Shown here piece by piece: positions 53,227 through 64,000 of a stretch of 64,000 bases of DNA. Source of the DNA: Candidatus Xiphinematobacter sp. GTDB lineage: Bacteria; Verrucomicrobiota; Verrucomicrobiia; Chthoniobacterales; Xiphinematobacteraceae. Position numbers and translations under genes: made by a program. The stretch covers positions 306,673-370,672 of the forward strand of contig CP068473.1 in assembly GCA_016766635.1 (NCBI GenBank), given 5' to 3'. The notes below the pieces were generated by a model. That model ran no database searches and was not told where the DNA came from. It saw only the letters and a program-made list of their open reading frames with translations. The first letter of the stretch is position 1; each line of letters opens with the position of its first letter.

Positions 53227-55302
53227 ATGGCTGAGAATAAACACAACCATCACAACCATAGCAACAGCAAGGACAGTCGCAAACGACCTAACAACAATGG
53301 CAAGGAACCGCAAGTGAATTGGCGTGGCTTGCTCTTGGTGATGGTAGCTGTAGCTTTACTGGGGGGGGCTCTGTTAGTTCGAGGGGGAGCCTTTTCCCAG
53401 TCAGAGGGTATTACTAATTCTCGCTTTTACCAACTCCTCAAGGAGTCAAGAGTCGTTTCCACTCCTAGCCACCAGCTTGCCATCAACGTGGAAGAGGGAA
53501 GAAAGACAGAGACCATTGTTGGATTTTATCGAAGAGAACCAACTACCGGTTCCAATCATGGACTGCAGGCCTTTCATACCACAGCGTTTATTGCCTATGA
53601 CGGTGATCAGCTGAAGCAAGCCCTCCAAGCGGCTGGGATCAAACCAAATATCCGGTCTCAATCTAACGCCTTGGCTAGCACGCTGATTAATGTAGTGCCG
53701 ATCCTTTTGCTTTTTATTGCTATTTATTTTTTCTTCCGTTCCCAAATCAAAATGGCTGGAAGGGGGGCTCTAAGCTTTGGCAAGAGCAAGGCTCGTATGA
53801 TGGCACGTGACAAAAACCGTGCCACCTTTAAAGATGTTGCTGGTATTGAAGAGGCGAAAGAAGATGTTTCCGAGTTGGTGGATTTTCTGAAGGATCCAAA
53901 AAAGTTTCAGAAGCTCGGCGGACGCATTCCAAAGGGCGTACTAATGGTAGGACCACCCGGTACAGGCAAGACTCTTCTGGCACGTGCCATCGCTGGAGAA
54001 GCAGAGGTACCTTTTTTTAGCATTAGTGGTTCAGACTTTGTTGAAATGTTTGTGGGAGTTGGGGCTTCTCGGGTACGGGACATGTTTGAGCAGGGAAAGA
54101 AAAATGCTCCTTGCCTGATGTTCATCGATGAAATCGATGCTGTCGGGCGTCATCGCGGCCACGGTTTAGGCGGTGGTCATGACGAACGGGAGCAAACCCT
54201 CAACCAGCTCCTTGTGGAGATGGATGGATTCGACACCCAAGATGGGGTTATTATCATAGCTGCCACTAATCGGCCTGATGTGCTCGACCCGGCTCTGCTG
54301 CGACCTGGGCGCTTCGATCGACAAGTCGTTGTTAGTCTCCCTGATGTCAAGGGAAGAGAAGAGATTCTTAGGGTGCATGCAAAAAAAGTCAAACTTGAGG
54401 AGTATGTAGACCTTTCTACTTTAGCCCGAGGCACGCCAGGTTACTCTGGTGCAGAGCTAGCTAACGTCGTCAATGAGGCAGCTCTCATGGCTGCTAGGAA
54501 GGGACTTCCAGCAGTCACTATGCGGGAGCTTGAGGAATCTCGTGACAAGGTACGGTGGGGAAAGGAACGTCGCAGCTTAGCCATGAGCGAGCGGGAAAAA
54601 ATCTCCACTGCGTGGCATGAATCAGGACATGCTCTACTTAATGTTCTCCTAGAACATACCAGTCCGCTACACAAGGTTACCATCATCCCCCGTGGCCCTT
54701 ATCTAGGTGCCACTATGCACCTTCCTGAGGGAGATAAGTATTCCACCCAACAAAAGGAGGCAACGGATTCCCTCGTTGTTATGATGGGTGGTCGTATTGC
54801 CGAGGAAATGTTTACAAACGATATTTCTAATGGCGCTGCTGGAGACATTAAGCAAGCAACCCAGTTGACTCGGAAGATGGTATGTGAATGGGGCATGAGT
54901 GATCTAGGAATGGTCCGTTACAGTGAGAATAGTGACTATGTCTTCTTTGCACGGGAAATGCTGCGCGGCCGTGAATACAGCGAAGATACCGCGAGGCAAA
55001 TCGATTCGGAGGTCAAACGCATCATTAGTGATGCCTACGCGCGAGCCACTGCGGTTCTAAGAAAGAACAGGAGGAAGATCAAACTCATTGCCAGTGCTCT
55101 TCTAGAGTACGAAACCTTGAGTGCTATTCACGTCAAGGAAATCATCGAATTTGGCGAATTACGCAATCCCCCACTTATGGAGCAAAAACCACCTCCATTG
55201 CCTCCACCTCCGCCAACGACCCCATCCACACCAAGTGAAACTAACAAGGGAGGGCAGCGCGTCCCCCCGCAGGGAGGGCTTCCTGCTCCAGCTCCTGCTT
55301 GA
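53227..55302 (+). CDS. ftsH: ATP-dependent zinc metalloprotease FtsH
   Basis: Membrane AAA+ protease degrading misfolded and regulatory membrane proteins. It is 691 residues from the ATG at 53227, which has a GGGAGAG site upstream. The N terminus is rich in His, Asn and Lys, then come two transmembrane helices around a periplasmic domain. Walker A is GPPGTGKT (242-249), Walker B is CLMFIDEID, the second region of homology is [20 protein letters not shown], and the zinc site HESGH lies at 464-468 with the third ligand in GDIKQATQ. The C-terminal tail is strongly proline-rich ([16 protein letters not shown]). An 8-G tract at 53361-53368 lies in the first helix. Confidence 0.96.
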
Positions 55303-55335
55303 GGGACCACTTGGCAACATGATGAAACTGTTTCT

Positions 55336-55352
55336 GTGGCAAACTTTGCCAC
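55336..55352. terminator. Hairpin between convergent ftsH and DJ-1 genes
   Basis: GTGGC and GCCAC flank AAACTTT; counting the A/T pairs, the palindrome reaches 8 bp per arm. It could serve either strand. No U tract is present. Confidence 0.35.
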
Positions 55353-55388
55353 CTCTCGAGGCCGGTCGTCTCCTTCGGGACAACAACC

Positions 55389-55976
55389 TTAGGAAGCCAT
55401 AATAGAGTAGGAGATTTCTTCTGCCTTTTTGGGGCCCATGAGGAGGCTCACCAAAGTAAGACCAAAGTCGAGAGCGGTGCCCGCACCGCGGGATGTCACA
55501 ATACGTTTATCTATCACCACGCGCTCCGCGGTGACGAAAGTGTAAGGCAATTCCCCGGAGAGAGAGAAGTGTGCCGTAAATCGGCGGTGCTCCAATAGCC
55601 CAGCATCAGAGAGAATCATTGGACCGGCACAAATAGCTGCAACCCAAGCTCCCCCTTTTTCGTAGGCAGCCGCTAGCTGCCGGGCGCGACCATCCTCCCG
55701 TAATCTAACAATCCCCCTCCGGCCACCTGGTATCATTAGAATATCAAATTGAGGCCTGCCCTCCACAGAGAGGGCTGGAGCAGTCTCTGAAAGAAGAGTG
55801 TCTGCCACTACCAAAATTCCGTTGCACCCCCTTACCTCTAGTTTCCTCTCCACCGTGGCAAGCACCACTTTACTGCCTGCACGCCTTAGCAAATCCACTG
55901 GTACCAAGGCCTCTATCTCTTCGAAACCACTAGCGAGCAGGCAAAAAACGGACGGCACTTTCGTAAACATCAGCAA
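55389..55976 (-). CDS. DJ-1/PfpI family protein
   Basis: Small alpha/beta protein of 195 residues in the DJ-1/ThiJ/YajL group. The N-terminal GFEEIEA supplies the conserved Glu, and the nucleophile elbow AAICAGPM contains Cys116, followed by the usual helix. The later TSRGAGTALDFGL stretch is a family landmark. Proposed roles in the group include chaperone, glyoxalase and deglycase activity; none can be singled out here. It converges on ftsH. Confidence 0.88.
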   Translation of the reverse strand: MLMFTKVPSVFCLLASGFEEIEALVPVDLLRRAGSKVVLATVERKLEVRGCNGILVVADTLLSETAPALSVEGRPQFDILMIPGGRRGIVRLREDGRARQLAAAYEKGGAWVAAICAGPMILSDAGLLEHRRFTAHFSLSGELPYTFVTAERVVIDKRIVTSRGAGTALDFGLTLVSLLMGPKKAEEISYSIMAS

Positions 55977-56240
55977 ATCTCCTAGAGATAGGGAAGCATA
56001 TCCGGGACGCGTACGCTACACACCAATCCGTCATGACCTGCAGAGGCAACAACAAAGCACAAAACCCAAACGGAACCCCGCGCAAGGAGAACCCTGAAAG
56101 CGCTCCCTATAATCCTATAAGAGAAGGCTATAAGAAAAGGGTAGAACACCGCGCTAAATCATTAAATTATCGGCAAAGCTACGGTACAGGACAAGCCCTC
56201 TCAGCATGACATGGACAAGGAGACCCCTTCATAGAAAAGA

Positions 56241-56588
56241 TCAGAAAGACCTCTCTTTGACCGCCATGGCAGACTTTCCTTTGCGCTTGCGTAAATAATA
56301 GAGCTTGGAACGATGCACACATCCCCTTCTTTCTACCTGGATCCTGGAAATCCTTGGAGAATGAAGTGAAAAGCTCTTTTCCACTCCTTCCCCAAAAGAA
56401 ACGCGTCGTACGATAAAACTCGCGTTGAGCCCTATACCTCTCCGAGCAATAACGATACCAGAATAAACCTGGACACGCTCCTTCTCCCCTTCAATCACGC
56501 GTATGTGTACCTTGACACTATCCCCAACTGCAAAGGGAGTGACCTCTGACTTGAGCTGTTCCTTTTCAATTTCCTCGAAAAAAGCCAT
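56241..56588 (-). CDS. rplS: 50S ribosomal protein L19
   Basis: Large-subunit protein at the 30S-50S interface, 115 residues, a normal length. Typical blocks are present: FAVGDSVKVHIRVIEGEKER, the VQVYSGIVIARRG segment, SFGEGVEKSFSLHSPRI and the C-terminal RRGCVHRSKLYYLRKRKGKSA. In many bacteria it follows rpsP, rimM and trmD; those are not here, so the usual operon is broken up. It is divergent from rnc, 150 bp away. Confidence 0.97.
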   Translation of the reverse strand: MAFFEEIEKEQLKSEVTPFAVGDSVKVHIRVIEGEKERVQVYSGIVIARRGIGLNASFIVRRVSFGEGVEKSFSLHSPRISRIQVERRGCVHRSKLYYLRKRKGKSAMAVKERSF

Positions 56589-56741
56589 GATTGATATAGC
56601 CGGTAGGTTATGCTAGCAGCTAACCCTTTTTTCTTATAAAAGAAAAGACTAAACCTCCCTATGAAAGGGATGGCTGGCATAATTACCACGCATAGCCCTC
56701 TCCAGACTCAACCCGCCCCTTCCTTCGGCCTTGTTTCATTG

Positions 56742-57449
56742 ATGAACTCGCTAGAGATGCAAATCGGATATAAGTTCCGAAATCCCCTCCTTCTGGTAGA
56801 AGCCCTCACCCACCCCAGTATTGCCACGGAACGCAAAAATTTTCCTTTCGATAATCAGCGACTGGAATTCCTTGGGGATTCAGTATTACAGCTTGTGGTT
56901 ACCGAGCGCCTCTTTACTCTCTTTCCTAGCTCCAACGAGGGACGGCTCACTAAGTTACGAGCAGGGATGGTTTCGCGCAACAATCTTAAGGACTACGCAG
57001 CCGCACTTGGCCTTGGAAGACACCTTGTGATAGGTCACGGGGAAGACGTTAATGGAGGACGTACTCGTGCCTCAACTCTAGCTGATGCTTTTGAGTCTCT
57101 GGCTGGTGCAATTTATCTAGATGGGGGGCTGGAGCAAGTTCGGAAATTTATCCTCCAACAAATTCAGAGTGACTTTGAAAACAAACCTCTGCAAGATTCG
57201 GAAGAATCATCTAACCCCAAAGGCAAGTTGCAGGAGATCCTTCAGTCTATTTCTGCAACTATACCAGAGTATATCCTACTCAGCCAGAGCGGCCCGGAAC
57301 ACAGAAAATACTTTCAGTGTGGTGTGATGTGGGAAAGGCAAGAGCTTGGTCGGGGCACCGGGTACAGTAAGCAAATGGCGGAAAAAGCAGCCGCTAGCGC
57401 AGCACTAATCGATCGTGCTTGGGAGACTCCGCTGGCTTCTGCCTCCTAG
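56742..57449 (+). CDS. rnc: Ribonuclease III
   Basis: Cleaves double-stranded RNA in rRNA and mRNA processing. It is 235 residues from the ATG at 56742; in-frame ATGs at 56661 and 56670 would add about 25 non-conserved residues. The catalytic signature NQRLEFLGDSVLQL and the second acidic cluster LADAFESLAGAIYLDGG are intact. A C-terminal dsRBD (NPKGKLQEILQ to the KAAASAALI helix) completes the protein. It is followed almost immediately by the membrane-protein gene. Confidence 0.95.
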   Translation: MNSLEMQIGYKFRNPLLLVEALTHPSIATERKNFPFDNQRLEFLGDSVLQLVVTERLFTLFPSSNEGRLTKLRAGMVSRNNLKDYAAALGLGRHLVIGHGEDVNGGRTRASTLADAFESLAGAIYLDGGLEQVRKFILQQIQSDFENKPLQDSEESSNPKGKLQEILQSISATIPEYILLSQSGPEHRKYFQCGVMWERQELGRGTGYSKQMAEKAAASAALIDRAWETPLASAS

Positions 57450-57451
57450 AG

Positions 57452-58000
57452 ATGGATAGCTTCTCACCAGAAACTATAGGAGCTATAGTGGGCGCGTTTC
57501 TACTTCTCTTCCATGTTGCAGCACTCTTGTTGAAAAAAGACTTCGGTAAATGGATGCAGAAATTTCCTCGGTCGAGGGGTTGGGGGAGCATTCTTCTATC
57601 GATGGCTGCTACATGGACCTTTCTTTTGGTAAGAAGGATGGACTTGGGTGAGTTTACTAACTTACGCACGATTGTGCTAGGTTCCGTGGCGGTTGCAGCA
57701 TTACTCATCTGGCTCCTTTTACAGGAATTTTTGGCTGCGAGAAGCACGGGACTGCTTATTCTCTTAGCTGCCGATCCGGTTCTCAACGCTTGTATTCTTT
57801 GGCCAAAAAGTTATCGGTTGCCCCTTGTTGCCCTGACCTATATCTGCATCCTGTGTGCTCTTGTCTGGTCCAGCATGCCATTTCTGATGCGAGATCAAAT
57901 TGCCTGGCTTACTGCCTCTTCCTGGCGTTGGAACATCGCTGCGGGAATTGGTGTTATTGTAGGATGCTGCATTTTGAGTGGCTCTCTCCTAAGAGTTTAA
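57452..58000 (+). CDS. Hypothetical integral membrane protein
   Basis: A 182-residue protein with five or six hydrophobic helices (for example GAIVGAFLLLFHVAALLL, VLGSVAVAALLIWLLL, LVALTYICILCALVW and IAAGIGVIVGCCILSG) and short charged loops. I do not recognise a family. Its ATG follows the rnc stop by 2 bp, so it is almost certainly co-translated with rnc. An upstream in-frame start would run into rnc. Confidence 0.75.
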   Translation: MDSFSPETIGAIVGAFLLLFHVAALLLKKDFGKWMQKFPRSRGWGSILLSMAATWTFLLVRRMDLGEFTNLRTIVLGSVAVAALLIWLLLQEFLAARSTGLLILLAADPVLNACILWPKSYRLPLVALTYICILCALVWSSMPFLMRDQIAWLTASSWRWNIAAGIGVIVGCCILSGSLLRV

Positions 58001-58144
58001 AAAAACCAAAGAGGACCACTCCATTATTTGCTTGTTAATTCCGTGCTGGTGGGGATGTTACCGGGTGGAGTTCCGTAACGGACATAAATTCAAGCAATTA
58101 GGCTTAGGAATCATAAACCCTGTTTCCTTCTGTAGGTTACCATT

Positions 58145-59023
58145 ATGACCAACTGGAAAGACACCTACCTCACGATAGGGCACTCGCCGGACCCAGATGA
58201 TGCTTTTATGTTCTACGCAATGGTTGAGGAAAAAATTGACCTAAGGGGCTACCATTTCCGGCATATTCTACGGGATATCGAGACACTCAATAGGCAGGCC
58301 GTGCTGGGAGAACTGCACGTTTCAGCAATTTCCATCCATGCCTATGCCCATCTAAGAGACCAATATCTGCTCCTCCCCATCGGAGCAAGCATGGGAGACG
58401 GCTACGGTCCTCTGTTGATTACCCACCACACACTTCCTGTCCCTTCCTTTTCCTCCGCAGATGATTGTAGAAAATGGCTTCTCAACCAACGTATTGCTGT
58501 CCCAGGACAGATGACCACTGCCTACTTGAGCACGCAGATTTTTTTAGGAGAATTCAAGCATATCGCTGTTCCTTTTGATGAAATTTTCTCCGCAGTAAAA
58601 AATGGAGAAGCAGATGTTGGCCTGCTTATTCACGAAGGCCAGCTCACTTATCTAAGGCGCGGCTTTAAAAAAATATTGAATCTGGGAGAATGGTGGAAAT
58701 CCTATACGCAGCTCCCACTCCCCTTGGGAGGGAATGTGATCCGAAAAGACATTCCCCCCTTTGTCCAAAGGGACATTGTGGAGATTCTCGAGGAGAGTAT
58801 TCGATACGGACTTCAGCATCCAAGCACTGCTATAGAACACAGTTTGCCCTACGCTCGTGGAATGGGATCGGAGCTTGCGCGTCAATTTATCGAGATGTAC
58901 GTTAACGACTACACCCTTGGCTACGGTAGGAAGGGGCATCAGGCTATTGAGAGGCTTTTCTCCGAAGCGCACAGCAGAGGGATCGTGTCTCCCCTCGTTG
59001 TGCCGCGATATGCACTTACCTAG
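58145..59023 (+). CDS. mqnD: MqnD/MqnA-type menaquinone biosynthesis protein
   Basis: Belongs to the MqnA/MqnD/SBP family of the futalosine pathway. The 292-residue protein starts with the family's IGHSPDPDDAFMFYAM motif. It then shows ISIHAYAHLRDQYLLLPIGASMGDGYGPLL and the later LGEWWKSYTQLPLPLGGNVIRKD typical of MqnD (1,4-dihydroxy-6-naphthoate synthase). MqnA (a dehydratase) has a related fold, so the exact step is inferred. With menG and ndh it indicates menaquinone-based respiration. No other mqn genes are in the window. Confidence 0.82.
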   Translation: MTNWKDTYLTIGHSPDPDDAFMFYAMVEEKIDLRGYHFRHILRDIETLNRQAVLGELHVSAISIHAYAHLRDQYLLLPIGASMGDGYGPLLITHHTLPVPSFSSADDCRKWLLNQRIAVPGQMTTAYLSTQIFLGEFKHIAVPFDEIFSAVKNGEADVGLLIHEGQLTYLRRGFKKILNLGEWWKSYTQLPLPLGGNVIRKDIPPFVQRDIVEILEESIRYGLQHPSTAIEHSLPYARGMGSELARQFIEMYVNDYTLGYGRKGHQAIERLFSEAHSRGIVSPLVVPRYALT

Positions 59024-59684
59024 GGAGCGGAACTACTTATAATAAATGGAGTTCCCTGATCCGGGATGTGGGACTGTGGTCCCCTATTGGAACTAGACTG
59101 TGTATGGCTCAGGTATTCGGTTATGTTCCATGGTCCATAGTGAGCGGGAAATAGCTTGAGAAACAGGCGGTATCCAGAAACGTTCCCATTCTCACCTTTG
59201 GCATCATAATCCAAGGTACCGGCCAAGCCGAACGCACTAATGCCAGCAGTTGTGAAGACTTTTATCCAACTCCGCCTAGGCGTTTCGTTCTTACTTAGTC
59301 TCTGATTAAGGGTCCTAGATCCACAAAGAAATAAGTCAGCCAGCGCGCAGCAGAGGTCAGGGGGGTCTGTGTTAGAAGTGCACCGAGTCTCCCCCTCCCT
59401 ACAAACTAAATCTCCCTCTCTACAAATAAAACGGCTTTCCTTCTCCAATCCTGTTATTTATAAGGACCTGCTTTGTTATCTCGATGCTCGCTTCTCATGC
59501 TCCTTTCGTGCAAACGTGCACCCCGCCTCCTGCCTCTCAGCCAGGAGACACATACACCAAACTGGCAGTAGAGACAGAGAGGAAAAACGGCTGCCTGGGA
59601 GGAATTACCTCGTCACTCTTCTTTCTTTATGGCGGAGAAGCGTAGCAGGAAAGCTTTTGATAGCGCAAGAATAGCGCAAGAAGC
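59024..59684. other. Gene-free stretch with possible gene remnant
   Basis: About 660 bp. A weak hairpin (GGAACT / AGTTCC) lies just after the mqnD stop. The minus-strand frame 59020-59448 (142 codons) has a middle part with protein-like composition (LAGTLDYDAKGENGNVSGYR) between low-complexity ends, one of which encodes an imperfect repeat (CREGD / CREGE). I take it as a possible remnant, not a gene. Confidence 0.4.
59660..59681. repeat. Perfect 11-bp tandem duplication
   Basis: Two exact copies of ATAGCGCAAGA lie just past the bS22-like gene. Confidence 0.9.
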
Positions 59685-59711
59685 CTACGACTTGTATCGC
59701 AGGCGCTTCTT
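59678..59711 (-). terminator. Hairpin over the end of the bS22-like gene
   Basis: Two stacked stems (AAGAAG / CTTCTT, then CCTACGA / TCGCAGG with one mismatch) separated by a CG bulge enclose a 6-nt loop. The hairpin covers the last eight codons and the stop, and no U tract follows. Confidence 0.4.
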
Positions 59712-59789
59712 GTGGCGATTTTGCTTCATTCGTTTGTGACGTTTATGCTTTGCAATCTTACTTCTTCTCTTTTTTTTGAGCGAACCCAT
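59685..59789 (-). CDS. AURKAIP1/COX24-like (bS22-type) mini ribosomal protein
   Basis: A 34-codon gene, shorter than usual gene-calling limits. The product starts MGSLKKKRRSKIAKHKRHKR and continues MKQNRHKKRLRYKS; more than half its residues are Lys or Arg. The KKKRRSKI.KHKRxKRxxxNRHKKR pattern matches the AURKAIP1/COX24-domain proteins of Bacteroidetes and Verrucomicrobia. These are relatives of the mycobacterial ribosomal protein bS22, which binds the small subunit near the decoding centre. The frame has a single stop and an ATG, with no Shine-Dalgarno sequence. It lies 91 bp downstream of hisG on the same strand. Function is inferred from the family pattern. Confidence 0.85.
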   Translation of the reverse strand: MGSLKKKRRSKIAKHKRHKRMKQNRHKKRLRYKS

Positions 59790-59880
59790 GTGATTTTTAC
59801 AGGCGATTCTGTTGCCAACACTTACTCTTCGTTAATCCAAAGAGGCTCTTCCACCAAGCGCACTGCTAATCCTCTACTGC

Positions 59881-60768
59881 TTAGTAGACAACCTTGTTTA
59901 AAGGATATTCAATGATCCCTTCTGCTCCGAGTGCTTTCAGCTTAGCGAGGATTTCTCGGACTACCTTTTCTTCGACAACAGCTTCCACCGCAACCCAACT
60001 GGCCTGAGCCAGAGGAGAAACAGTGGGATTTCTCAGCGAAGGCAGAGCCCTCAGCAGTTTTTCCAAACTTGCTGAGGGGAGGTTCATCTTTATCCCAACT
60101 AGGCTATGGGCATCTAAGGCCCCCTTTAGTAAGAGAGCAAGGCTTTCCAGCTTGCCTCTTTTCCATTTATTTTTCCAACTACACTTATTTGTCACCAGAG
60201 CTGGATAGGACTCTAGCAAGGTGTCTACGATCCGTAACTTGTTAGCTTGAAGTGAAGCACCAGTTTCCGTAATCTCCACGATCGCGTCTGCCAAGTCTGG
60301 TACCTTGACTTCAGTAGCACCCCAAGAGAATTCAACCTGAACGCTCACTCCGTGCTTTTTAAAAAAACCTCTAGTTAAACTGACCACTTCAGTTGCAATC
60401 CGCTTCCCCTCCAAATCATACACCGAGTGCACGGGAGATTCTTCGGATACCACCAGCACCCAGCGCGTTGGGCTGGTACTCGCCCTGCTGTAGGGAAGTA
60501 CTCCTACCTCGCGTACGCGAGCACCACTCTCAGCTATCCAGTCTTGTCCGGTAATCCCAGCATCTAAATAATTGTGCTCTACATAACGGCTAATCTCTTG
60601 AGCACGTAAAACTCGGATCTCTAAATCGGGATCGTCTATCACGGGACGATAGGAGCGGGTAGAACCAGAAATACTAAAGCCTGCCTTCGCAAAGAGCTGC
60701 ACCGTGGCTTCCATCAGACTGCCGGAAGGCAAACCAAGAAGCAGTTTCTTGTCATCTATTTTCTTCAT
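59881..60768 (-). CDS. hisG: ATP phosphoribosyltransferase, long form
   Basis: First and regulated step of histidine synthesis. The 295-residue protein begins LLLGLPSGSLMEATVQLF. The PRPP-binding block is ADAIVEITETGASLQANKLRI, and a C-terminal domain of about 75 residues (from TVSPLAQASWVAV) is the ACT-like histidine-binding regulatory part. This is the long HisG form, which does not need HisZ. No other his genes are adjacent. Confidence 0.95.
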   Translation of the reverse strand: MKKIDDKKLLLGLPSGSLMEATVQLFAKAGFSISGSTRSYRPVIDDPDLEIRVLRAQEISRYVEHNYLDAGITGQDWIAESGARVREVGVLPYSRASTSPTRWVLVVSEESPVHSVYDLEGKRIATEVVSLTRGFFKKHGVSVQVEFSWGATEVKVPDLADAIVEITETGASLQANKLRIVDTLLESYPALVTNKCSWKNKWKRGKLESLALLLKGALDAHSLVGIKMNLPSASLEKLLRALPSLRNPTVSPLAQASWVAVEAVVEEKVVREILAKLKALGAEGIIEYPLNKVVY

Positions 60769-61556
60769 CTAGCGTTCTCAAGAACTTTACCTGGGCTGCT
60801 ATCGGGCTACTATATTCTGGGATGTATGGAGAGCGAGAAGAATTTGTAGCAATGGATTTCACACGGGGGCACGAATAACAAGAGACGGGCGGAAAAATAT
60901 TTTCCGATTCCAAGGTCTAGTGTTGCCTATGTAGCGGTTTTTCGACCAGATCGATCTGGTGTGACCATTGGTGAGGTTGCTGGCCTGCAAGTAAGCACCT
61001 CTCTGGAGAAGGAAGGGTACCCGTCATTTTCTCCACTCAGAGAAAGTAAGCCCGGTTTCCCTGGGGCAGAGGCGGCCCGTACCAGTGTGGGAAGCCTTTC
61101 CTACCGGGGAGGATCCGTAAGGGTTTTTCGTATAAAGGGTTACAGTGGCCCTCTTCAACGCTAACCTCTCCAAAGGAGTACGATTCTGGTGATAACAGAG
61201 GGGGTAAGGCCCCCCCTTTTTTCTACAAGGACTCCCCCCCCTCATTTTAGTGTTCCTGGGGAGACACGCACAGCACCAAAGTTTTGCCGTAGAGTACAAG
61301 GCGGCCGCAAGAATATGAGACACAAGACCTGTCGATGACCTCCATAATATGGAAGAGGCCACAACATCATGCTAATATGGCTCGGTAGCTAATGATATAG
61401 GGGCTATAGACGGCCAGCAAGGAATTGTGGCGGTATCCCCCCCGTTTCTTCTTTACACTAGAAAGTTCACAGAACTAGGGAAGCTCTCTTGCCCTTGCTC
61501 TGGTAAGGGGTCATCGTGGGATGTTACAGGGAATAAATAGATCAACCATCGAGGAC
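60769..61556. other. Large gene-free stretch between ndh and hisG
   Basis: About 790 bp. It contains a perfect 16-bp palindrome (60945-60960) and homopolymer runs of C (7-8) near 61210-61240. The plus-strand frame from about 60960 to 61164 and the antisense frame 61024-61362 lack recognisable domains. Confidence 0.5.
60945..60960. promoter_or_regulatory. Perfect 16-bp palindrome
   Basis: ACCAGATCGATCTGGT, with no spacer, lies about 180 bp upstream of hisG. It has the form of a dimeric-repressor operator, but no cognate regulator is identifiable. Confidence 0.4.
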
Positions 61557-62960
61557 TCAACCATCGAGTGTTTTGGAGGTAGAACGGCCCCCAGAAAGCT
61601 TATTTTGCCAAGCCCGGAGAAGAATTATGCGAGACGTGGTTGCATAGGTCAGATAAGAGAAGATCCAACTTAGAAACACACGCGAGCGCTTCCTAAACCC
61701 GGTGAGAAAATAAAGGTGGATTAGTGTCCAAGTGATCCAAGCAAAGTACCCGCCGAACTTAATCAGATGCAGATCGACTACAGCAGCATGCCGTCCAATG
61801 GTGGCCATACTCCCTCTGTCCACATACGCGAAGTGTTTCGTGGAAACTCTGTTTAATAGGCAAAGGATATTCCTTGCTACAAGACGTCCAGCTTGTACTG
61901 CCGCTGGAGAAACACCAGGAACAGGAGTGCCGTCGGGACGTCTGGAGAACGCCATATCTCCAATCACGAACACTTCGGGATGCCCGGGAATACTCATATC
62001 TGCATTGACTATGACCCGTCCTTGACGATCTACTTCGACGCCAAGTTGACTTCCCAGAGGAGAAGCCACGTTTCCGGCGGCCCAAATAACGGTACGAGTG
62101 GGAATGGTGGCTCCATTTACTTCTACATAATCCCCTGTAATTCGAGTGACCTTCGCGGCAAGGCGGACCTCCACGCGAAGTTTTTTTAGCTGTTTAAGGG
62201 CTTTGCCGGAAAGGACAGGATCAAAAGTAGGAAGAATGTGGGAGGCGGCCTCCACAAGAATAATCCGAGCCTCTGGCGGATTGATATGGCGAAAATCTCT
62301 TCTTAAGGTATGGTGTGCCAGTTCAGCAATAGCGCCCGCCGTTTCTACGCCAGTCGGTCCCCCTCCTACTATCACAAAGGTCATTGCTCGCTCGCGCTCT
62401 TCTGGCACAGAAGCCTTCTCGGCATCCTCAAATGCCACAAGGATGCGATTTCGAACGTTAATAGCATCTTCCAGAGTTTTTAGACCTGGAGCGTGCCGCT
62501 CCCATTCGTCTTTTCCAAAATAGGAATGACGTGCACCACAGGCTAGAATAAGGTAGTCGTAGCGTAGAGTTAGGTCTGGCGTTACCACTAGCTTCTTAAG
62601 CGTATCAATCCTGGTTACCTCGTCGAGAAAAATCTCTACGTTTCTTTGGGTACGTAAAATAGAGCGAATCGGTTCAGCGATATCTGCTTCCGCCAGGCCG
62701 GACGTTGCAACCTGGTAGAGAAGCGGCTGAAAAAGATGATGATTACTTCTGTCAATTAGAATAACTCGGACTGCCACATCTGCGAGGCCGCGGGCAGCAG
62801 AGAGCCCGCCAAACCCTCCCCCGATAATAACGACAACTGGTAGGCTCGATTGATTTCCGACGGTTCCACTTGTATAGCTCATAGCAGTGCTCATAGAGGT
62901 CTCATTTTGCTGGATATTTTGCTGGATGGGGGGAGCAGCTTTCATACAGAAAATCCGCAC
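61557..62960 (-). CDS. ndh: Type II NADH:quinone oxidoreductase
   Basis: Single-subunit, non-proton-pumping NADH dehydrogenase that reduces menaquinone. The protein is up to 467 residues. The FAD motif VVVIIGGGFGGLSAARGL begins near residue 42, the NADH motif FVIVGGGPTGVETAG is in the middle, and VFVIGDMAF is the second FAD contact. The C-terminal tail (GYFAWITWTLIHLYFLTGF) is the membrane-binding amphipathic part. The true start may be a later Met (codon 6, 23 or 27). It diverges from lysA, 123 bp away. Confidence 0.93.
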   Translation of the reverse strand: MRIFCMKAAPPIQQNIQQNETSMSTAMSYTSGTVGNQSSLPVVVIIGGGFGGLSAARGLADVAVRVILIDRSNHHLFQPLLYQVATSGLAEADIAEPIRSILRTQRNVEIFLDEVTRIDTLKKLVVTPDLTLRYDYLILACGARHSYFGKDEWERHAPGLKTLEDAINVRNRILVAFEDAEKASVPEERERAMTFVIVGGGPTGVETAGAIAELAHHTLRRDFRHINPPEARIILVEAASHILPTFDPVLSGKALKQLKKLRVEVRLAAKVTRITGDYVEVNGATIPTRTVIWAAGNVASPLGSQLGVEVDRQGRVIVNADMSIPGHPEVFVIGDMAFSRRPDGTPVPGVSPAAVQAGRLVARNILCLLNRVSTKHFAYVDRGSMATIGRHAAVVDLHLIKFGGYFAWITWTLIHLYFLTGFRKRSRVFLSWIFSYLTYATTSRIILLRAWQNKLSGGRSTSKTLDG

Positions 62961-63083
62961 GCACCCTTACCCCCTTCTTCCGGACCAAAGCAGGCTGGGC
63001 CGGACCTCCCCGGGGGCCCATTCTACTTTGATTTACTGGCTGATTGACATTAAAAAAATAGCGGTTACATCCTTTTCCTGACT

Positions 63084-64000
63084 ATGCATCACTTTGCTTT
63101 CCACAATGGGTCTCTCTGCTGTGAACAGCATAAACTCTCCTACTTAAGTAGGCATTATGGGACTCCTCTCTATGTCTATTCGGCACAGACTATCAGGGAT
63201 AATTTCCGGCGTTTGAAAGCTGCTTTAGCACCTTTAAACCACCTAGTCTGCTATGCAGTTAAAGCTAATTCCAATCTGTATATTCTGAATCTTTTTGCCG
63301 GGCTAGGGGCTGGATTTGACATTGTCTCTGGTGGCGAACTTTATCGAATCCTGCAGGCCGGTGGATATGCTAGCCGTTGCACCTTTGCAGGAATCGGTAA
63401 AACCCGGGAAGAAATCGACTATGCACTTAGGGAAGGTGTATACTGCTTCATCGTAGAATCTGAAGCAGAACTGGAGACTATCAACGGAATTGCTGGGAAA
63501 CTGGGGAGAAGGGCTCCAGTAGCTCTACGCATTAATCCAGATGTGGAAGTGAGCACACACTCTTATATCACCACTGGAAAGGCCAACAACAAATTCGGAA
63601 TCGACCTAAGCCATGCCGAAGAAGCGTACGCCCACGCTGCTGCCCTGCCTCACCTTTCCATCCGCGGCGTCCAGACTCACATTGGCTCCCAGATTTTAGA
63701 TTGCCGACCCTTTGTAGAAGCCATTAGAAAGCTATCTTCTCTAGTTGTTCAGCTTGCGGAACGCTATGGGATTGAGTTCTTTAGCGTGGGGGGGGGTATG
63801 GGAATTGTCTATCAAGAAGCTCTAGAAAGTGGGGCTCCACAATGGTGGAAGGAGGCGGATCCAGAACTCTTAACTCCAGAGAGATACGCAGCAGCTCTGC
63901 TGCCACTCCTTTCTTCCCTAGGGGTTAAAATTTTATTTGAACCTGGCCGTAGTCTTGTCGGAAACGCTGGAATTCTTATCACACGAGTAATCCAAGCTAA
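63084..64000 (+). CDS. lysA: Diaminopimelate decarboxylase, 3' end outside window
   Basis: PLP enzyme making lysine from meso-diaminopimelate; cut by the window edge after about 305 residues. The ATG at 63084 opens a frame with the PLP-lysine motif CYAVKANSN, then GFDIVSGGEL, HIGSQI, SVGGGMGI (phosphate-binding glycines) and FEPGRSLVGNAG. The glycine loop is encoded by nine consecutive G (63788-63796). A short insertion (EALESGAPQWWKEAD) follows that loop. It adds lysine to the amino acids made in this window. Confidence 0.95.
   Translation, partial: MHHFAFHNGSLCCEQHKLSYLSRHYGTPLYVYSAQTIRDNFRRLKAALAPLNHLVCYAVKANSNLYILNLFAGLGAGFDIVSGGELYRILQAGGYASRCTFAGIGKTREEIDYALREGVYCFIVESEAELETINGIAGKLGRRAPVALRINPDVEVSTHSYITTGKANNKFGIDLSHAEEAYAHAAALPHLSIRGVQTHIGSQILDCRPFVEAIRKLSSLVVQLAERYGIEFFSVGGGMGIVYQEALESGAPQWWKEADPELLTPERYAAALLPLLSSLGVKILFEPGRSLVGNAGILITRVIQA

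Follow-up and report, generated by a model that had tools for sequence, protein, structure and literature searches.

The 34-codon open reading frame (ORF) at positions 59685-59789 of the window is a real, conserved coding gene, and sequence comparison indicates that its product is very probably the small-subunit ribosomal protein bS22 (mS38/AURKAIP1/Cox24 type) in its Verrucomicrobiota form. The window is the whole stretch of 64,000 nucleotides that was analysed (306673-370672), and the genome consists of a single 917,278-bp contig. The minus-strand reading of the ORF is MGSLKKKRRSKIAKHKRHKRMKQNRHKKRLRYKS, a protein of 34 aa, followed by TAG. The name bS22 is also applied to the SRA protein of E. 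coli, which is a different protein from the one meant here. The gene and its upstream neighbour are arranged as follows:

59685..59789, minus strand, putative bS22/mS38-type small ribosomal protein gene, 34 codons and a TAG stop
59790..59880, minus strand, hisG-bS22 spacer of 91 nt, without a Shine-Dalgarno core before the ATG
60768-59881, minus strand, hisG, long form with HisG_C (PF01634, E 1.2e-39; PF08029, E 2.2e-25)

The original prediction had described an intact and extremely basic mini-gene downstream of hisG, and both parts of that description were borne out. The frame is open on the minus strand, which the prediction had left unnamed, 91 nt past the hisG stop, and its protein contains 18 K or R among 34 residues, no acidic residue and a computed pI of 12.0, which is the ceiling of the program. 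Its K+R fraction (0.529) is the highest among the 409 window ORFs that reach 25 aa when read from their first ATG, the runner-up having 0.328. In 30 Markov-1 random windows, such ORFs with 30 aa or more did not exceed 0.375. Prodigal has a usual minimum gene length of 90 nt, so length alone would not bar a gene of 105 nt. The Xiphinematobacter genome paper reports annotation by Prokka, which uses Prodigal (PMC7857533, consulted in part).

The shortness of the ORF, its low-complexity, A-rich coding strand and the lack of a Shine-Dalgarno core upstream of the ATG would all suit a chance open frame, or a purine-rich antisense stretch without a product. The probability of this is practically nil, and we judge it refuted by the conservation tests, to which the excess of K+R over the random windows can be added. 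Frame statistics were obtained on 56 loci, the best-scoring matches (at most 30 per search) with the own copy included, which encode 16 distinct proteins, one identical sequence being present in 21 copies. All 56 begin with ATG and have their stop directly after codon 34, and identity to the window gene is 0.858, 0.861 and 0.466 at first, second and third codon positions, respectively, whereas the 100-nt flanks of the same copies show identities of 0.26 and 0.25, which is chance level. Mean pS is 0.70 against a mean pN of 0.08, and pN is lower than pS in every one of the 1483 differing pairs (1540 pairs in total). The same pattern is found against a sister genome of the same genus (G003, 915,884 bp), where the bS22 gene has a pS of 0.407 and a pN of 0.024. 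Moreover, when positions 55000-64000 of the window were compared with this genome by blastn (E<=1e-4), a block 83% identical was found at 59680-60768; it opens at the hisG start, and the similarity ends 5 nt beyond the stop of bS22. Against a second genome of the genus (G001, about 2.5 Mb) the blastn block covers 59683-60750.

The two stretches that flank the hisG-bS22 pair, 59014-59679 and 60769-61566, gave no blastn match to the sister genome at E<=1e-4. They are almost wholly without a clear gene, although the blocks on both sides are about 80% identical to the sister genome. A 101-aa ORF at 59369-59671 on the plus strand had no Pfam match at E<=0.001, and Rfam found nothing above its gathering scores in these stretches. 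A menaquinone biosynthesis protein gene (58145-59023; PF02621, E 1.2e-70) is convergent with the bS22 gene.

Conservation of the frame in relatives had been set beforehand as a check of the original prediction, and it held. The protein query matched 55 of 57 genomes in a close set and 282 of 288 in a sample of Verrucomicrobiota; the own genome, which has one match, is counted in each, and several genomes belong to both sets. The weakest best match among the 282 phylum genomes had an E of 0.0172. A scrambled query, near the true composition with one K for R off, matched 6 of the same 57 close-set genomes with a best E of 0.136; as far as these searches go, the conservation of the frame exceeds what the scramble control yields. 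No match was found in two close-set genomes (G004, G025) or in six of the phylum sample (G161, G177, G186, G237, G295, G314), and a second query on these eight gave weak matches in two (E 0.057 and 0.222). All eight are drafts, 83-97% complete, and gaps are a possible cause of the missing bS22.

The assignment to the bS22/mS38 family proceeds through the relatives of the window protein. A check against the domain profile had been proposed, and the family passed it. Scanned alone, the window protein scored 17.2 bits (E 0.0047) against Pfam COX24_C, below the cut-off of 23 bits, and 11.6 bits against NCBIfam NF047430 ribo_bS22, below the equivalog cut-off of 34 bits. The family as a whole did match, and the window protein, being below the cut-offs on its own, is therefore placed via its family. 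An alignment of 22 members was built from the window protein and 21 relatives hand-picked for spread among the fetched bS22 copies and the loci chosen by hisG. All 22 match COX24_C at E<=1 (best E 4.8e-06) and 20 match the NCBIfam bS22 model at E<=1 (best 0.0013). Ten relatives were also scanned singly, and five of them (L131, L122, L121, L101, L088) lie above the 23-bit COX24_C cut-off, the other five below. Seventeen of the 34 columns are invariant in the 22 members (M1 G2 S3 K5 K6 R8 K11 I12 H15 K16 R17 K19 R25 H26 K27 K28 R29). When the 22-member profile was compared with the PDB, all seven matches at E<=10 were named bS22, AURKAIP1/COX24 or mS38, which supports the bS22/COX24-like name first given to the gene; the best was chain 7jil_5 (E 5.9e-05), the next had an E of 0.0051 and the other five ranged from 0.039 to 4.9. 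The window protein can thus be regarded as bS22/mS38-type by profile comparison, not by the NCBIfam equivalog rule.

AlphaFold2 predicted a single helix over residues 4-33 (mean pLDDT 91.8, pTM 0.49), a model that would fit bS22 but is not specific to it for a very basic 34-mer. The window protein combines a length of about 30 aa, a very basic composition and one predicted helix, as expected of a bS22/mS38 protein. Three forms of the protein tail were seen among the copies: RLRYKS and near variants, as in the window, RTWQK, and none or one residue in proteins of 29-30 aa (example loci L064, L067, L068, L085, L074; L121, L122, L131). The tail form may track lineage. In 14 control genomes the COX24_C model matched three (Corynebacterium glutamicum, Methanocaldococcus and Sulfolobus are the ones named), and the exceedance of the cut-off is ascribed, without a firm assignment, to Corynebacterium glutamicum. 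It found nothing in Bacteroides ihuae, also one of the 14, which may reflect insensitivity of the model or absence of the gene. In view of this null and of the three matched controls, the model is no full guide to the spread of the family.

Chains 7jil_5, 8fmw_V and 8crx_X were used for comparison with solved ribosomes, and we take them to be from Flavobacterium johnsoniae, Borrelia burgdorferi and the actinobacterial group of Mycobacterium smegmatis / Cutibacterium acnes bS22, respectively. Chain 7jil_5 was also matched by the window protein alone (E 0.013), with 16 identities in 28 positions counted on the single-sequence alignment. The profile aligns to it ungapped from residue 1 with the HKR-KR-NRHKK core in common, although the Flavobacterium protein has 30 aa and is without the RLRYKS tail. 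The actinobacterial chain has 33 aa, an MGS start like the window protein and an alignment over residues 1-30, but its similarity is weak (E 1.2), its second half diverges more and it is not among the PDB matches of the profile. In mitochondrial mS38/AURKAIP1/Cox24 the basic domain matches the profile in 8a22_BC, 6xyw_BB, 9evs_c and 5aj4_An, with weak similarity (E 0.039 to 4.9), and in the chains of 128 and 137 aa the matching region is close to the C-terminal end, preceded by a long N-terminal stretch.

The Flavobacterium johnsoniae bS22 is described in the parts consulted of PMC10618245 and PMC10085706. The 30-aa sequence of 7jil_5 is labelled both '30S ribosomal protein S22' and '50S ribosomal protein L38', and one of the two labels is probably a mix-up, because the consulted part of PMC10618245 treats bL38 as a separate large-subunit protein. 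The Borrelia bS22 (bb0822), as described in the same source, is like the window protein in size class and high basicity; the profile matches its 28-aa chain 8fmw_V with an E of 0.044, and it differs in having a GUG start, a shorter length and a match that starts at residue 6. The descriptions consulted (PMC10085706, PMC10618245) also liken bS22 to eL41/aL41, which occupies the same small-subunit pocket with a basic helix but has 24 aa and is unbent (PMC10618245), whereas the solved bS22 relatives have a bend.

Composition alone can make such a basic 34-mer resemble other basic peptides, and the weak single-sequence matches (E 0.0047 in Pfam, 0.013 in the PDB) leave some room for a small non-ribosomal peptide, such as a nucleoid protein or an RNA chaperone, that binds nucleic acid and resembles bS22 by its charge. 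This is highly unlikely, as the profile's PDB matches are all bS22, COX24 or mS38 chains, the alignment to 7jil_5 runs ungapped from residue 1 with the HKR..KR..NRHKK core shared residue by residue, and half of the ten relatives scanned singly pass the Pfam cut-off. Selection could also act mainly on a secondary role of the ribosomal protein, for example with the free peptide acting against microbes or inhibiting translation. There is a precedent in C. acnes, whose free bS22 is reported in the part of PMC10085706 consulted to inhibit the growth of E. coli and staphylococci and E. coli cell-free translation. The two roles are compatible and not mutually exclusive. Nevertheless, a mainly antimicrobial role is extremely unlikely here, since the 34 aa contain no hydrophobic export signal, judged by eye, and a core role accounts better for the presence of bS22 in 282 of 288 phylum genomes and for its survival in a reduced endosymbiont.

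The gene is commonly linked to hisG. In 45 of the 56 best-scoring copies a hisG gene precedes bS22 in the same orientation, with 9-169 nt between its last matched codon and the bS22 start, and none was seen at the other 11 loci within the stretch examined (about 1.5 kb for most, little over 0.1 kb for L020). To avoid selecting by bS22, hisG was also used as the only query, and its 80 best loci out of 569 were taken. The bS22 frame is present somewhere in 57 of these best 80 loci, and in 54 it lies 0-400 nt downstream of hisG on the same strand; L136 would be a 55th if its ATG were counted, the script having measured from 12 codons before it, and the frame is farther from hisG in L072 (4155 nt) and L096 (852 nt). 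At least 300 nt downstream are included in 74 of the 80 loci, and four of the 23 loci without bS22 include less. All ten loci with Opitut- titles (L105, L110, L118, L119, L123, L124, L128, L133, L134, L137) are without a bS22 frame in the stretch covered, which includes less than 200 nt downstream of hisG in L124 and L133. In this sample the hisG-bS22 pair is widespread in the phylum but not universal, and the link may have been lost in the Opitut- class. In a consensus scan the only promoter-like site was on the plus strand, with none on the minus strand, and two terminator-like sites were found, one on the minus strand at 59689-59675, spanning the bS22 stop. These counts (1 and 2) are not above what shuffled sequence gives (means of 1.3 and 1.5) and are not used to define a transcription unit. 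Rfam and ARAGORN found three tRNAs in the window, all at about 41.5-43.8 kb and none near the bS22 ORF.

With a core of GGAG, GAGG or AGGA at -16 to -4 taken as a Shine-Dalgarno site, none precedes the bS22 ATG in the window. The fetched bS22 copies have 44 different upstream stretches, and one of these contains such a core. Within the window the core is not enriched at first ATGs (12.0% of 50, in ORFs of 150 aa or more) over internal ATGs (13.1% of 358). The count is crude, since every start was set at the first ATG and shadow ORFs on the antisense strand were left in. The organism's own 16S tail (L138:2860-3060) keeps GGATCACCTCCTTTCT, an intact anti-Shine-Dalgarno sequence with CCTCC. The bS22 message, perhaps carried on the hisG transcript, would be translated with no Shine-Dalgarno site. 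The protein is also present in Flavobacterium, Borrelia and mycobacteria (many leaderless messages), and in mitochondria. The parts consulted of two sources report that some Verrucomicrobiota are Shine-Dalgarno-scarce with an intact anti-Shine-Dalgarno (a survey, PMC10783764) and suggest a role of bS22 in leaderless initiation for mycobacteria (PMC6582356). The extension of this idea to the Shine-Dalgarno-scarce Verrucomicrobiota is proposed newly here: bS22 might belong to a kind of ribosome suited to initiation without Shine-Dalgarno pairing, in which it would stiffen h44/h45 beside the anti-Shine-Dalgarno and so steady initiation on such messages. We consider it unlikely; the COX24_C null in Bacteroides ihuae is a counter-point, and a near-universal bS22 in one phylum cannot alone establish a correlation with Shine-Dalgarno usage. 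In Flavobacterium, Tyr54 of bS21 takes part in sequestering the anti-Shine-Dalgarno (PMC10618245, in the part consulted). The own genome has a bS21 (L141, 827481-827642, 60.8 bits) whose basic C-terminal part is without tyrosine, judged by eye, which speaks against that device here.

By analogy with the solved relatives, the bS22 helix would pack into the 16S rRNA pocket formed by h2, h27, h44 and h45, which is most likely its binding site in this organism too. Its basic side chains would secure upper h44 close to the decoding centre, and the helix would reach the 23S rRNA (H67/H68) to form an inter-subunit bridge. According to the parts consulted of the respective papers, C. acnes bS22 lies deep between h27, h44 and h45 of the 16S rRNA and contacts H67 of the 23S rRNA, giving a new inter-subunit bridge (PMC10085706), and Borrelia bS22 occupies the pocket of h2, h27, h44 and h45 and contacts H68 (PMC10618245). 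The Borrelia gene was unannotated and is among 601 essential-gene candidates of a transposon library (PMC10618245), and yeast mS38 stabilises h44 and is required if mitochondrial protein synthesis is to run at its full rate (PMC6582356). Conservation together with the Borrelia and yeast work suggests that bS22 may be needed for normal growth and translation in the present organism.

The kind of protein is already known, and the find is sound but ordinary; what it usefully adds is the distribution of bS22 across the sampled phylum, the association with hisG, and the scores below threshold that existing models give. The bS22 ribosome literature, in the parts consulted, does not treat Verrucomicrobiota, and no paper linking Verrucomicrobia with COX24 was found in the library searched, which is not proof of absence from print. 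bS22 joins the expected ribosome parts list for most of the sampled Verrucomicrobiota, including a 0.92-Mb nematode endosymbiont whose copy is scored too low by the curated bS22 model to be named. For annotators, seeking bS22 just downstream of hisG is a genomic rule that often works, and the 22-member seed alignment is useful in that it reaches these sequences. The finding also suggests that, around the decoding centre, Verrucomicrobiota ribosomes are poorly modelled on that of E. coli.
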